Shown here: one piece after another, positions 7,392 through 54,901 of the stretch
Position numbering within the stretch: position 1 is the first letter of the stretch
Layout: each line of letters begins with the position of its first letter
DNA from: Microbacterium sp.
GTDB taxonomy: Bacteria; Actinomycetota; Actinomycetes; Actinomycetales; Microbacteriaceae
NCBI RefSeq assembly: GCF_011620665.1
Contig: NZ_WOYQ01000021.1
Span: 20,964 to 84,963 of the forward strand
Direction: 5' to 3'
Length of the DNA: 64,000 nucleotides
The notes under the pieces: model-generated
The model's database searches: none
What the model was told of the DNA's origin: nothing
Seen by the model: only the letters and a program-made list of their open reading frames with translations
Made by a program: the position numbers and the translations under genes

Positions 7392-7538
7392 GCGGACCTC
7401 CTCTGGGGGGGAGAAAGGGCGGATGCCGGGTCGGCGACGTGGCATGAGTACACCACAGCGCACGCGCCGGTGGGATGAGAATCTTCCAACCTGTGGAGAG
7501 GCTCCGCGCGGACGTGGCCGATCGCCTACCCTCGCGAC

Positions 7539-8135
7539 GTGCGCTGGGATCGCTTCTTCGAAGACCTGGAGGATCAGCTCGACTCCGAATGGGAGGCCGA
7601 GCGCGCCGCGCTGGACACGGAAGCCGAGCGCCTCCGGCTCTCGCGCATACCGATTCGCGAGCGCCTGGTGGCGCTTGCTTCTGCGGGGCATCAGGTCGTG
7701 GTCGATCTCTCCGGCGGAGGGGAGACTGTGGGGACCGTGACCCGGGTCGGGGTGGACTGGTTCGCACTTCAGGCGAACGCGCGGCGGCCCGATGCGTCGC
7801 TGGTGCCGCTGCATGCCGTGATGGCGCTCGGAGCATCGGCCGACGCGGTGCTGTCCAGTGTCCGCGCCGCGGCGCCGGGGACGGCTCTCGCGCAGCGGAT
7901 GACCTTCGGGTTCGTCCTGCGCGACGTCGTGCGACGGCGGATCTACACGACGGTCCAGCTGACCGGTGGCCGCACGCTCTCGGGCACCATCGACCGCGCC
8001 GGATCCGATCACCTCGACCTCGCACTCCACGAGTCCGGCACGCCGCGCCGGGCCGACAACGTCACGGGCTTCCGCATGATCCCGTTCGCCGCCGTCGCCG
8101 TCGTACGCCTGGATGCCGCCGCCGGACTGCCCTGA
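7539..8135 (+). CDS. conserved hypothetical protein
   Basis: GTG start preceded 6 nt by TACCCT; RWDRFFEDLEDQLDSEWEAERAALDTEAERLRLSRIPIRERLVALAS. Confidence 0.7.
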   Translation: MRWDRFFEDLEDQLDSEWEAERAALDTEAERLRLSRIPIRERLVALASAGHQVVVDLSGGGETVGTVTRVGVDWFALQANARRPDASLVPLHAVMALGASADAVLSSVRAAAPGTALAQRMTFGFVLRDVVRRRIYTTVQLTGGRTLSGTIDRAGSDHLDLALHESGTPRRADNVTGFRMIPFAAVAVVRLDAAAGLP

Positions 8136-8157: not shown

Positions 8158-8439
8158 TCAGTCCGGGTTCCGGACCTCGCCGCGGCCCCAGAGCTCGGGG
8201 AAGCTCGCCGCGTTCGACTCGCGCCAGAGAGCGATGCGGCGAGCCTCCTCGGCCTGGTCATCGAGATAGGCGTTGACGCTGTCGGGCTCGATCCGCCAGC
8301 GCCCGGGCCTGCCGACCTTTGTGCCACGCAGCCGGCCGTCGAGGACGAGCGCTATGACCTCATCTACGGGCAGCTGGAGCATCTCCGCGACCTGCGCGGG
8401 CGCGAAGAGGCGAATCCCCGGTTCGGGTGTTTCGGGCAT
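8158..8439 (-). CDS. helix-turn-helix (excisionase/MerR-like) DNA-binding protein
   Basis: LFAPAQVAEMLQLPVDEVIALVLDGRLRGTKVGRPGRWRIEPDSVNAYL; GATAAT 6 nt before the ATG. Confidence 0.8.
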   Translation of the reverse strand: MPETPEPGIRLFAPAQVAEMLQLPVDEVIALVLDGRLRGTKVGRPGRWRIEPDSVNAYLDDQAEEARRIALWRESNAASFPELWGRGEVRNPD

Positions 8440-8482: not shown

Positions 8483-8514
8483 GCCGCCCTGTGGATAAGC
8501 CGCCCTGTGGATAA
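8483..8514. repeat. tandem 2 x 16-bp perfect repeat, each copy with a consensus DnaA box (TGTGGATAA)
   Basis: gccgccctgtggataa|gccgccctgtggataa; DnaA boxes at 8490-8498 and 8506-8514. Confidence 0.75.
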
Positions 8515-8554
8515 AGAGGGATGCCGGTGAGCGTCGTCGGCGACGATGGACCGC

Positions 8555-9184
8555 ATGAGTGAGACTGCCCCTGCCCGCCCACGCCCCCGGGCTTTCTGGT
8601 CCGATGTGCGCTTCCTCGTCGGCGTCGGCCTGATCGTCGTGTCCATCGCCGGAGTCTGGGTCGTCGTCGCAGCGGCGCGGCAGACCGTTCCGGTCTTCGC
8701 CGCATCGCGCACGATCGTGCCGGGTGAGATCGTGACCTCCGGCGATCTGCAGGTCGTCGAGGTCGCGCTCGGCCGGATAGAGGATGCGTATGCGTCGCCC
8801 GCGAGCTTCGAACCCGGATCCGTGGCCCTCCGCACCGTCACGGCGGGAGAACTGGTGCCGCGGACCGCGATCGGCGCGGCCGAGCAGGCGCGCACCACCA
8901 CGGTCGTGGTGACCAGTGCCACCGCGCTCCCGGCAGCGGTGGGCGCCGGCACGACGGTCGAGGTCTGGGCGGCCCCGCAAATCGAACGCGGAGTCTTCGA
9001 CGTCCCTCGGATCCTGGTCGCCTCGGCGACCGTGGTGTCGGTCGACGACGAGGCGTCGGTGATGGGGAGCGCGGGGAGGGCTGTCGAGCTCGTGATCGAG
9101 CGAGCCGATGTCGCCGACACGCTCGCGGCCGTCGCGGCCGGCGCGAGCATGTCGATCGTGCCGACGGCGGGGATCGCTCGATGA
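8555..9184 (+). CDS. SAF domain-containing membrane protein (CpaB/FlgA-like)
   Basis: N-terminal TM segment LVGVGLIVVSIAGVWVVVAAA, then VPVFAASRTIVPGEIVTSGDLQVVEVAL... and GELVPRTAIG. Confidence 0.8.
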   Translation: MSETAPARPRPRAFWSDVRFLVGVGLIVVSIAGVWVVVAAARQTVPVFAASRTIVPGEIVTSGDLQVVEVALGRIEDAYASPASFEPGSVALRTVTAGELVPRTAIGAAEQARTTTVVVTSATALPAAVGAGTTVEVWAAPQIERGVFDVPRILVASATVVSVDDEASVMGSAGRAVELVIERADVADTLAAVAAGASMSIVPTAGIAR

Positions 9185-10443
9185 GCGCGGTGATCGTCGC
9201 GGTCGACGGGAGGCGCGGGCGTGCGCTCGCGGACGAGTTGGAGCTTGAGGGCGCGCAGGTGCGGCTCGTCGTCGCCCCGAATGAACCCGCTGCGGCGGTT
9301 GCGGACGCGATGGCCGGGCCGGAGGCGGCGCAGCTGCTCGGAGAGCTGGCCCGTGTCGACCTGCTGATCGTCTCGGCGGACCGCTCCTCGTTGACGGCGC
9401 AGCTCGTCGCGGCATGCGATCGATTCGGTGTGCGGATCATCGCGCTGTGTCTGCGCGACGACCAGCGCCGCCTGGCGCGCATGTTCGGCGTCGGAATCGG
9501 TGAGGCGGGTGCCGATGCCGCATCCCTGTTGGCGACGCCGACGATCGCGGCGGATGCCGCTCCCTCCGCCCGCGGCCGTGTCATCGCCGTCTGGGGTCCC
9601 GCCGGCGCGCCCGGCCGGACCCGGGTCGCGGTCGAACTCGCCTGCGAGTTGGCCAGGGACGGGCGCTCGGTCGCGTTGATCGATGCCGACTCGCACGCGC
9701 CGTCGATGGCGCTCGTGACGGGGCTGGCTGACGAAGGACCAGGATTTGCGGCGGCGTGCCGACAGGCGGAGCGGGGCACGCTGACCGTTGCCGAGCTCGC
9801 ACGCATCGCCGTGCCGCTCGGTGCGGTGGAGGTGCTGACGGGTGTGAACCGCCCCGGCCGGTGGCCTGAACTGAGCCGCGAGCGCGTGCGCGGAGCACTC
9901 GGCGTCTGCCGGGAGTGGGTGACCGATGCCATCGTGGACGTGGCTTCGCCCCTGGAGAGCGATGAGGAGATCGTGAGCGATCTCGACGGCCCCAGGCGCA
10001 ACGCGGCCACGCTCGCCGTGCTCGCCGAGGCCGATGTGATCATCGCCGTCGTCGCCGCGGATCCGACGAGTGTGTCGCGGTTCGTGCGCGGCTATGGGGA
10101 GCTGCGCGCCGTTGCCGGGTCGACCCCGGTGCGCGTCGTCGTGAACAAAGCGCGCACCGGAGCGCTCGGCATCGACGCGCGCGGGCAGGTGCGCCGAACG
10201 CTGGAACGCTATCTCGGCGTCGACCACCTCTGGTTCCTGCCGTGGGATGTCAAGGCGGCCGACGCGGCGCTCCTGGCCGCACAGCCCATCGCGCAGGTCG
10301 CAGGGCGGTCAGCCTTCTCGGCGGCGCTGCGCCGTTTCGTGGGGGAGGCGGTCGACCCTCCGGTGCGTGTGCGTGACACCCGCGAGGGGCGGCACTCTCG
10401 GCGGGGTCCTTCGCGCGCTCGAGTCACTCACCGCGCGGCCTGA
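9181..10443 (+). CDS. MinD/ParA/CpaE-like P-loop ATPase
   Basis: GRVIAVWGPAGAPGRTRVAVELACELARDGRSVALIDADSHAPS; ADVIIAVVAADPTSVSRF; overlaps the SAF gene by 4 bp. Confidence 0.8.
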   Translation: MSAVIVAVDGRRGRALADELELEGAQVRLVVAPNEPAAAVADAMAGPEAAQLLGELARVDLLIVSADRSSLTAQLVAACDRFGVRIIALCLRDDQRRLARMFGVGIGEAGADAASLLATPTIAADAAPSARGRVIAVWGPAGAPGRTRVAVELACELARDGRSVALIDADSHAPSMALVTGLADEGPGFAAACRQAERGTLTVAELARIAVPLGAVEVLTGVNRPGRWPELSRERVRGALGVCREWVTDAIVDVASPLESDEEIVSDLDGPRRNAATLAVLAEADVIIAVVAADPTSVSRFVRGYGELRAVAGSTPVRVVVNKARTGALGIDARGQVRRTLERYLGVDHLWFLPWDVKAADAALLAAQPIAQVAGRSAFSAALRRFVGEAVDPPVRVRDTREGRHSRRGPSRARVTHRAA

Positions 10444-10466: not shown

Positions 10467-11963
10467 GTGTCGACACTCAGCGATCTCGTCTACGCCCAGG
10501 GCCGCTCGAGCGAGCAGGATATCGAGTGGCTGCACCGTCTGGTCGGGGACGGACAACTCCTGGCCGACCTCGCGTTCGCCGACATCGTCATCTGGGTGCC
10601 CACCATGAGCGACGATTCGTTCGTCGCTGTCGCGCACACTCGTCCTGGGGGCGCGGCGACGCTGTTCTACCGCGATATCGTCGGTGACCTCGTCCGTCCG
10701 CAGTGGCGCACGCAGGTGCGGGATGCCTTCACCCAGGCCCGCATCGTCGATTCGGCTTCGCCGGACTGGTTCGAGGAAACGCCGACGCGCGTGCGTGCCG
10801 TGCCGATCGTCCGGGAGCGGGCCACGGCGGATCGGGCGGCGACGGTCATCGGGGTGCTCACCCGCCACACCAACCTGGGCGAGGCGCGCACCCCTTCGCG
10901 CCAGCAGATCACCTTCAACGATTGCGCCGACGACCTGTTCGGAATGATCGCCGCCGCTGACTTTCCCGACCTCGCTGCGCCGACATCCCCCCGACGGGGC
11001 GCCCCGCGTGCCTCGGACGGTCTGATCCGACTCGACGCGGACGCGATCGCCACCTTCGCAAGCCCCAACGCCCTTTCGGCATTCAACAGGCTCGGGTTCG
11101 AGGACGAGCTCGAGGGGGAGTCGCTTCTCGAGGTGGCATCGGCTCTCCTTCCCTCCCAGCGTCAATACGACGAGTCCCTGCCGATTGTGATGGCCGGCCG
11201 TGCTCCGTGGCGCGCCGATCTCGAAGCGCGCGGCGTCACGGTGTCGCTGCGCAGCATCCCGCTGCGCGAGCACGGCAGCCGGATCGGGGCGATAGTCCTC
11301 TGCCGTGATGTGACGGAGATCCGTCACCAGGAGCAGGAGCTCATCACCAAGGACGCAACGATTCGGGAGATCCACCATCGCGTCAAGAACAACCTGCAGA
11401 CGGTTGCCTCGTTGCTGCGCATCCAGTCGCGTCGCACATATTCCGACGAGGCCCGCGACGCGCTCACCCAAGCCATGCGCCGTGTGTCCGCGATCGCGGT
11501 CGTCCATGACACGCTGTCGGCGGGGCTCGCGCAGGACGTCGACTTCGACGAGGTCTTCAACCAGGTGCTGAAGCTCGTGGCCGAAGTGGCGGCATCACCC
11601 AATACGCGAGCACGCACCCTGAAGAGCGGCACTTTCGGGACACTGCCCAGCGAGTACGCGACACCGCTCGCGCTGGCGCTCACCGAGCTTGTCACCAATG
11701 CCGTTGAGCACGGTCTGGCGGACAAGGAGGGCGAGGTCGAGATCAGCGCCGCCCGCAGCGAGGAACGCCTCGAGGTGCGCGTCCGCGACAACGGCGTAGG
11801 GCTCCCCGAAGGGCAGGTCGGTCAGGGGCTGGGCACGCAGATCGTGCGCACCCTCATCCAGGGAGAACTCGGCGGCACGATCGATTGGCACACGATCACC
11901 GGCAGCGGCACCGAGGTGACCATCGACATTCCACTCCGCTACATCGACCGAGCGGTGAACTGA
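10467..11963 (+). CDS. pdtaS: sensor histidine kinase of the PdtaS/HisKA_2 type
   Basis: EIHHRVKNNLQTVASLLRIQSRR H-box; ELVTNAVEHG and VRDNGVGLPEG ATPase motifs; N-terminal GAF-like and PAS-like regions. Confidence 0.87.
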   Translation: MSTLSDLVYAQGRSSEQDIEWLHRLVGDGQLLADLAFADIVIWVPTMSDDSFVAVAHTRPGGAATLFYRDIVGDLVRPQWRTQVRDAFTQARIVDSASPDWFEETPTRVRAVPIVRERATADRAATVIGVLTRHTNLGEARTPSRQQITFNDCADDLFGMIAAADFPDLAAPTSPRRGAPRASDGLIRLDADAIATFASPNALSAFNRLGFEDELEGESLLEVASALLPSQRQYDESLPIVMAGRAPWRADLEARGVTVSLRSIPLREHGSRIGAIVLCRDVTEIRHQEQELITKDATIREIHHRVKNNLQTVASLLRIQSRRTYSDEARDALTQAMRRVSAIAVVHDTLSAGLAQDVDFDEVFNQVLKLVAEVAASPNTRARTLKSGTFGTLPSEYATPLALALTELVTNAVEHGLADKEGEVEISAARSEERLEVRVRDNGVGLPEGQVGQGLGTQIVRTLIQGELGGTIDWHTITGSGTEVTIDIPLRYIDRAVN

Positions 11964-54729: not shown

Positions 54730-54901
54730 TGTGGATGCCGCCGACACGCCGAAGACAGTTTCCACAGGGGAATCCGTGTCGGTGGCCCGGCGTAGCGTCC
54801 GGTCTGTGGATGAATGCTGGGGTCGCGCGGGAAATGCGCACGATCCAGGGATTTTCCGACTGCTCAGAAAGGACCTCTCCTGTGGATGAAACGGTGGACA
54901 A
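54730..54901. promoter_or_regulatory. cluster of DnaA-box-like sites upstream of nrdHIEF
   Basis: TGTGGATGC 54730-54738; GTTTCCACA 54758-54766; TGTGGATGA 54805-54813 and 54881-54889; GGTGGACAA 54893-54901 (7/9 to 8/9 matches). Confidence 0.5.

Follow-up and report, generated by a model that had tools for sequence, protein, structure and literature searches.

Introduction

How natural competence is switched on in actinobacteria is largely obscure, and Micrococcus luteus, in which Tad/Flp pili are required for transformation, does not have the ComK cascade of Bacillus subtilis (PMC4322843). In this species, competence is reported to depend on the nutritional state and on (p)ppGpp (PMC6667448). 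In the M. luteus locus that is most relevant here, the helix-turn-helix gene Mlut_14660 is divergent from a series formed by Mlut_14650 (RcpC/CpaB), Mlut_14640 (TadZ/CpaE) and a PAS histidine kinase; deletion of cpaB lowers transformation 10^4-fold, and comEA/EC promoter activity is raised by EMS mutations that lie within the HTH gene or 5' of it, among which a reconstructed R64W reproduces the phenotype of its parent (PMC8467076). The authors of that study propose transcriptional interference together with repression by HTH_17, and the word "DnaA" does not occur in its main text.

The 64-kb stretch of Microbacterium DNA analyzed here (the window) has the same gene order, with a divergent HTH_17 gene, cpaB/SAF, cpaE/TadZ and a PAS/PdtaS-type histidine kinase (Table 1). 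Because this order matches that of the M. luteus locus, we assign the SAF/ParA cluster of the window as a pilus/competence accessory operon, cpaB-cpaE; in agreement with an RcpC/CpaB identity, the first gene encodes a SAF domain, lies in an operon with a CpaE/TadZ ATPase, and has HTH_17 as its divergent neighbor. A preceding sequence-only reading of the window had recognized a SAF/ParA operon, but missed its Tad/competence-pilus identity. It had also drawn attention to a tandem repeat between this operon and the HTH gene on the minus strand, a placement that is correct and is supported by the Pfam matches of the surrounding genes.

Table 1. Positions of the repeat, the predicted promoter elements and the neighboring genes in the window.
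Feature	Position	Strand	Basis or remark
Perfect tandem repeat of GCCGCCCTGTGGATAA (2 x 16 bp)	8483..8514	+	Tandem form otherwise only in relative G013
Extra lineage-specific DnaA box TGTGGATAA, upstream copy	8490..8498	+	Exact match; relatives compared
DnaA box TGTGGATAA, conserved downstream copy, in the cpaB promoter	8506..8514	+	~-48 to -40 from predicted leaderless start
-10-like hexamer GACGAT of the putative cpaB promoter	8542..8547	+	27 nt after conserved box, no -35
cpaB-like (RcpC/CpaB) SAF-domain protein	8555..9184	+	Pfam SAF; ortholog position of Mlut_14650
CpaE/TadZ-like ParA/MinD-type ATPase	9181..10443	+	Domain match; same gene order in the M. luteus operon
PdtaS-type sensor histidine kinase, downstream of cpaE	10467..11963	+	Domain match
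Divergent HTH_17 (excisionase-like) DNA-binding protein	8158..8439	-	Ortholog position of M. luteus Mlut_14660
Degenerate box TGTGGAGAG in promoter of gene 7539-8135	7492..7500	+	26 nt before TACCCT (7527-7532)
198-aa protein, no Pfam/NCBIfam match, box-regulon member	7539..8135	+	

Results and Discussion

The Tandem Repeat in the Window

The two copies of the repeat stand back-to-back at 8483-8498 and 8499-8514 and are 100% identical, so that the perfect 2 x 16-bp repeat described earlier is confirmed, as are the two exact DnaA boxes within it, which are separated by a gap of 7 bp and are the sole exact copies of TGTGGATAA in the window. Across the whole genome (2.21 Mb in 82 contigs), TGTGGATAA occurs exactly 12 times, against three occurrences of the reversed control pattern. 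Four of these 12 sites belong to the dnaA-dnaN (oriC) contig region or its vicinity, one lies in the dnaB promoter, two form the repeat in the window, and several are found at genes identified, from sequence only, as DUF222/HNH-type. The repeat is the only tandem pair among them, no other two being closer than 168 bp. As a separate observation, two TGTGGATGA sites lie on the same strand, 76 bp apart, at 54805-54889 of the window.

The pair itself is nonetheless not what is conserved. Two boxes at cpaB are found only in the window and in one of its 26 relatives (G013, with a 17-bp phase), whereas the other 25 same-genus cpaB loci carry a single box, and this single box is orthologous to the downstream copy of the window. 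The emphasis that had been placed on the tandem pair is therefore not supported, and we reject the pair as a functional unit: the tandem duplication is, on this comparison, incidental, and the conserved element is the second copy (8506-8514). The expectation of conservation in relatives holds for the single box and fails for the pair.

Conservation of the Box in the cpaB Promoter

Our sample comprised 30 same-genus HTH loci, including that of the window, in 27 of which cpaB adjoins the HTH gene. All 27 cpaB promoters carry the box, which is exact in 24 and differs by one change in three (TGTGGAGAA in two and TATGGATAA in one). In 26 of the 27 it is followed by a -10-like hexamer, [CG]A[CG][CG][AC]T, at a spacing of 27 nt in 24 loci and 26 nt in two. 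No -35 element is recognizable in these promoters, mismatches to TTGACA averaging 3.65 compared to 3.89 in shuffled sequence. The cpaB start in relatives is the ATG equivalent to 8555, whereas the longest SAF open reading frame begins at the ATG at 8546; we prefer the former because the latter lies inside the predicted -10 element. With the start codon directly after the -10 element, cpaB transcripts are likely to be leaderless. The combined pattern box-N23..31-SAYSATG is found in 76 of 119 same-genus genomes, and its reversed control in none.

The box also disappears together with the pilus genes. It is absent from the three same-genus loci that have HTH_17 without cpaB, and from all four genomes that keep HTH_17 without cpaB and tad-type TadA. 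All four readable HTH_17-keeping genomes without a close TadA ortholog (best hits ~38-44% identical) have lost cpaB. Box, cpaB and tadA are thus lost together, in what is a small sample of four loci. The box is unlikely to serve the HTH_17 promoter, since HTH_17 is kept without it where cpaB is lost.

Outside the genus, the HTH_17/cpaB/cpaE locus was found in 18 order-level genomes, with a readable intergenic region in 17; these mostly carry DnaA-box-like sites, which occur as TTATCCACA as well as TTGTCCACA and in either orientation. Among 79 named loci, an exact site is present in 58 and one with at most one mismatch in 73. In almost every Arthrobacter/Pseudarthrobacter locus, TTATCCACA occupies one fixed position, and Arthrobacter, apart from a few deep members, was excluded from a further set of 50 diverse HTH_17/cpaB intergenic loci. 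In this set, exact sites occur in 20 loci (0.07 in shuffled sequences, maximum 1) and sites with at most one mismatch in 40 (2.1 in shuffled sequences, maximum 5), with none in the HTH coding control. As the genomes behind these sets are related, none of the counts represents independent events. The box is often reversed outside the genus, and its spacing is 38-39 nt in the Micrococcaceae examples. The tadA promoters of other families carry DnaA-box-like sites as well.

In M. luteus (taken to be G266; residues S27, S46 and R64 in place), the box is TGTGGAAAA, which has one mismatch, is in reverse orientation and lies ~39 nt before TACCCT. We mapped the published SNPs from the coordinates of the paper with an offset of 91, which was confirmed by the codons for S27, S46 and R64. 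The mapped coordinates rule out that SNPs 13-M89 and 13-M1090 hit the box, and as the published intergenic SNPs fall outside TGTGGAAAA, M. luteus genetics so far does not implicate it.

Other Operons Preceded by the Same Box

In several genomes, second matches to the promoter pattern led to a gene for a T2SSE ATPase followed by two for T2SSF proteins, that is, to tadABC. Of 24 same-genus tadA loci, two with a split gene were left out, and in the other 22, which are intact, the promoter has the box at the equivalent position without exception (21 TGTGGATAA and one TGTGGACAA); the tadA promoter of the window's own genome has TGTGGATAG. Similarly, gene 7539-8135, which has no Pfam/NCBIfam match and did not turn up in a scan of the three cpaB-less loci, is preceded by a box-like sequence at ~-48 (-47/-49) in 27 of 27 same-genus orthologs, as TGTGGATAA in 15, as TGTGGACAA in three and with one or two changes in the rest. 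Finally, a search of ten genomes for box, spacing, -10 element and start codon, for which reversed controls gave no match, returned a lipoprotein gene with the box in nine of the nine tad-bearing genomes searched, including the own genome (TGTGGACAA at C81:12988); G021 has three copies. The lipoproteins form a family of ~180 aa with the motif GFASEEEAFAAAEATYRAYVDA and no Pfam family (loci G000:C81:12988 (L355), L342, L348, L351, L359, L364 and L370-L374).

In front of cpaB, tadA, gene 7539-8135 and the lipoprotein gene alike, the box thus keeps one orientation and one distance, and because these four operons have it in common, we consider it to define a pilus/competence regulon. Such a conserved cis-element provides a handle on the common regulator of the pilus operons, for which DnaA is the candidate, and also predicts new pilus-linked genes: the lipoprotein and, from its shared box promoter, the 198-aa protein, a candidate new Tad/competence-linked gene. 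By contrast, comEA/EC is not a clear member of the regulon, as comEA promoters have only degenerate, TCCAC-containing sequences near -45.

Boxes also lie near two other kinds of genes. The DUF222/HNH-type genes, which we take to be 13E12-like, have a box near a TGTCGGxG-N8-TA promoter (L001, L002, L008, L073, L360 and L368), overlapped in L073 by a LexA-like palindrome, TCGAAC-N4-GTTCGA. We did not count them in the regulon because their promoter, which presumably resembles the PafBC RecA-NDp motif, is of a different type. In the own genome and in G013 alike, the dnaB promoter (L012, L083) contains TTATCCACA, 28 nt ahead of CATAAC, plus a TGTCGGxG element, and control of this replicative helicase gene by DnaA is possible.

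We also observed that tadA is repeatedly interrupted. Insertions of ~25, 45 and 104 kb split the gene in G022 (L334, L335), G021 (L336, L337) and G028 (L338, L339), and adjoin three different recombinases (tandem tyrosine recombinases, a serine recombinase and a phage integrase). In the own genome, contigs C6 and C5 (L157, L158) end exactly between TadA residues 207 and 208, at the Walker A motif, and the gene of G026 is split near residues 207/208. Mobile elements thus seem to target this competence-pilus ATPase gene.

Which Protein Reads the Box

DnaA domain IV binds the 9-mer TGTGGAYAA (= TTRTCCACA). We compared 71 promoter boxes with 113 boxes of the dnaA-dnaN (oriC) region from the same genus. 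Both sets share an invariant TGTGGA core, with T far more frequent than C or G at position 7; as the cores of both sets were chosen as box-like, only the flanking positions provide an unbiased comparison, and these agree well between promoters and oriC, with C before the box in 72 vs 65%, and after it first C (83 vs 71%) and then T (68 vs 61%). The farther 5' flank differs, being A-rich at oriC and not at the promoters. The box furthermore tolerates the exchange of T and C (TTATCCACA/TTGTCCACA) that is accepted at oriC. We note that within a genome, oriC and the promoters match only in part in their use of T or C (G051 and G053 disagree), and strict co-variation across families was thus rejected. 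The RDHTTV contact region of DnaA is conserved in each genome where it was located.

Taking these observations together, we consider DnaA the most likely reader of the box. Of the regulatory functions that the sequence-only reading had offered for the repeat, DnaA control of the cluster is the best supported, on account of the fixed promoter spacing, the box shared with the unlinked tad operon and the oriC-like preferences. In Escherichia coli, DnaA prefers pairs of boxes 2-3 bp apart in vivo and leaves most single consensus boxes unbound (PMC11317965), whereas the boxes described here are mostly single and those of the window are 7 bp apart; this rule may not hold in actinobacteria. The often reversed orientation and different spacing outside the genus, the differing farther 5' flank, the partial T/C agreement and the degenerate comEA sites weigh against our reading as well.

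The same E. coli preference, which disfavors single boxes, is compatible with a dedicated pilus/competence regulator that happens to have a DnaA-box-like site, as are the fixed spacing and the compact regulon of four operons, both typical of a dedicated activator. We nevertheless regard such a regulator as unlikely: it would need to share the core tolerance of DnaA, including the T/C exchange, and the immediate flanks of oriC boxes across many families, and the genes next to the locus yielded no candidate.

Slightly less probable still is that the box is read by the divergent HTH_17 protein, which would act as a repressor or an activator of cpaB, tadA and the competence genes. It is the neighboring regulator in a locus of conserved order, and the M. 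luteus mutations in Mlut_14660 or its 5' region do affect comEA/EC promoter activity (PMC8467076). However, four genomes keep HTH_17 after the loss of cpaB, tad-type TadA and the box, and the part of it that recognizes DNA is markedly different in Microbacterium (PVDEVIALVLDGRL) and in other families (SAAQAYALVRSGEL), with the box unchanged. A lone asymmetric 9-mer with oriC-like flanks also suits DnaA domain IV better. Thus, the tolerance and profile of the box and the constancy of the DnaA contact motif, set against the variable recognition region of HTH_17, favor DnaA.

A site for DnaA titration had been the other function offered for the repeat, and a perfect pair of boxes away from oriC would suit such a titration or replication-control site (datA/DARS-like), here by coincidence. 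We consider this very improbable, because the box is usually single, is phased to the -10 element, precedes four operons and is lost with the pilus genes; rather than a cluster untied to a promoter, there are one or two boxes located 26-27 nt from a -10 element. Chance finally has next to no credibility, since the near-uniqueness of the tandem form to the lineage of the window, which would agree with it, concerns the pair, while conservation, shuffles, reversed-pattern controls and the coding control refute it for the single box.

Proposed Mechanism and Comparison with Known Systems

Overall, we find it reasonably probable from the comparative sequence evidence that the repeat comprises a regulatory DnaA box of the cpaB-cpaE(-pdtaS) promoter, belonging to a Tad/competence-pilus regulon that DnaA reads and probably activates. 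In the corresponding mechanism, one TGTGGAYAA, spanning ~-48 to -40 of an extended -10 promoter that is leaderless and without a recognizable -35 element, would place a protein at ~-44, in a position like that of a class II activator. DnaA bound just upstream of the would-be -35 would probably help RNA polymerase onto the promoter; activation by DnaA is, on this placement, somewhat better than an even prospect, although DnaA may instead repress. The level and nucleotide state of DnaA would then set the recruitment of RNA polymerase to cpaB, tadA and their partner genes, and expression of the pilus and DNA-uptake genes would be coupled to how much free DnaA there is or to its nucleotide state, and so to replication and nutrient status. 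The extra box of the window (8490-8498), a probable recent duplication, may raise occupancy, and HTH_17 may influence competence from a different site.

Extending this to a large part of the Actinomycetes, we lean toward DnaA being a direct regulator of the Tad/competence pilus that couples DNA uptake to the replication or nutrient state via a single fixed box. Should DnaA indeed read the box, DNA uptake would be under the direct influence of replication control. Our search of the literature, with subscription papers and preprints outside its scope, found no link between DnaA and Tad/Flp pili or competence in actinobacteria.

Related couplings have been described elsewhere. In B. subtilis, DnaA is linked to Rok, which represses comK, the master gene of competence, but it is recruited via Rok to places without DnaA boxes (PMC11841835), whereas in the present case the promoter has a canonical box of its own. 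In Streptococcus pneumoniae, replication stress induces competence and likewise couples it with the state of replication; this coupling runs via the origin-proximal comCDE operon (PMC8394987) and not via DnaA boxes at pilus promoters. Also related are the promoters at which DnaA acts as a transcription factor, such as E. coli nrdAB and dnaA, Caulobacter gcrA/ftsZ/mipZ and B. subtilis sda, where, as here, boxes lie in promoters away from oriC and DnaA activates or represses depending on its nucleotide state (PMC8203912). The regulons covered in that article concern replication, nucleotides, the cell cycle, sporulation and, in part, motility and quorum sensing, with no mention of competence or pili. 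Unlike these known regulons, the promoters described here mostly have a single box, at a fixed distance before pilus operons.
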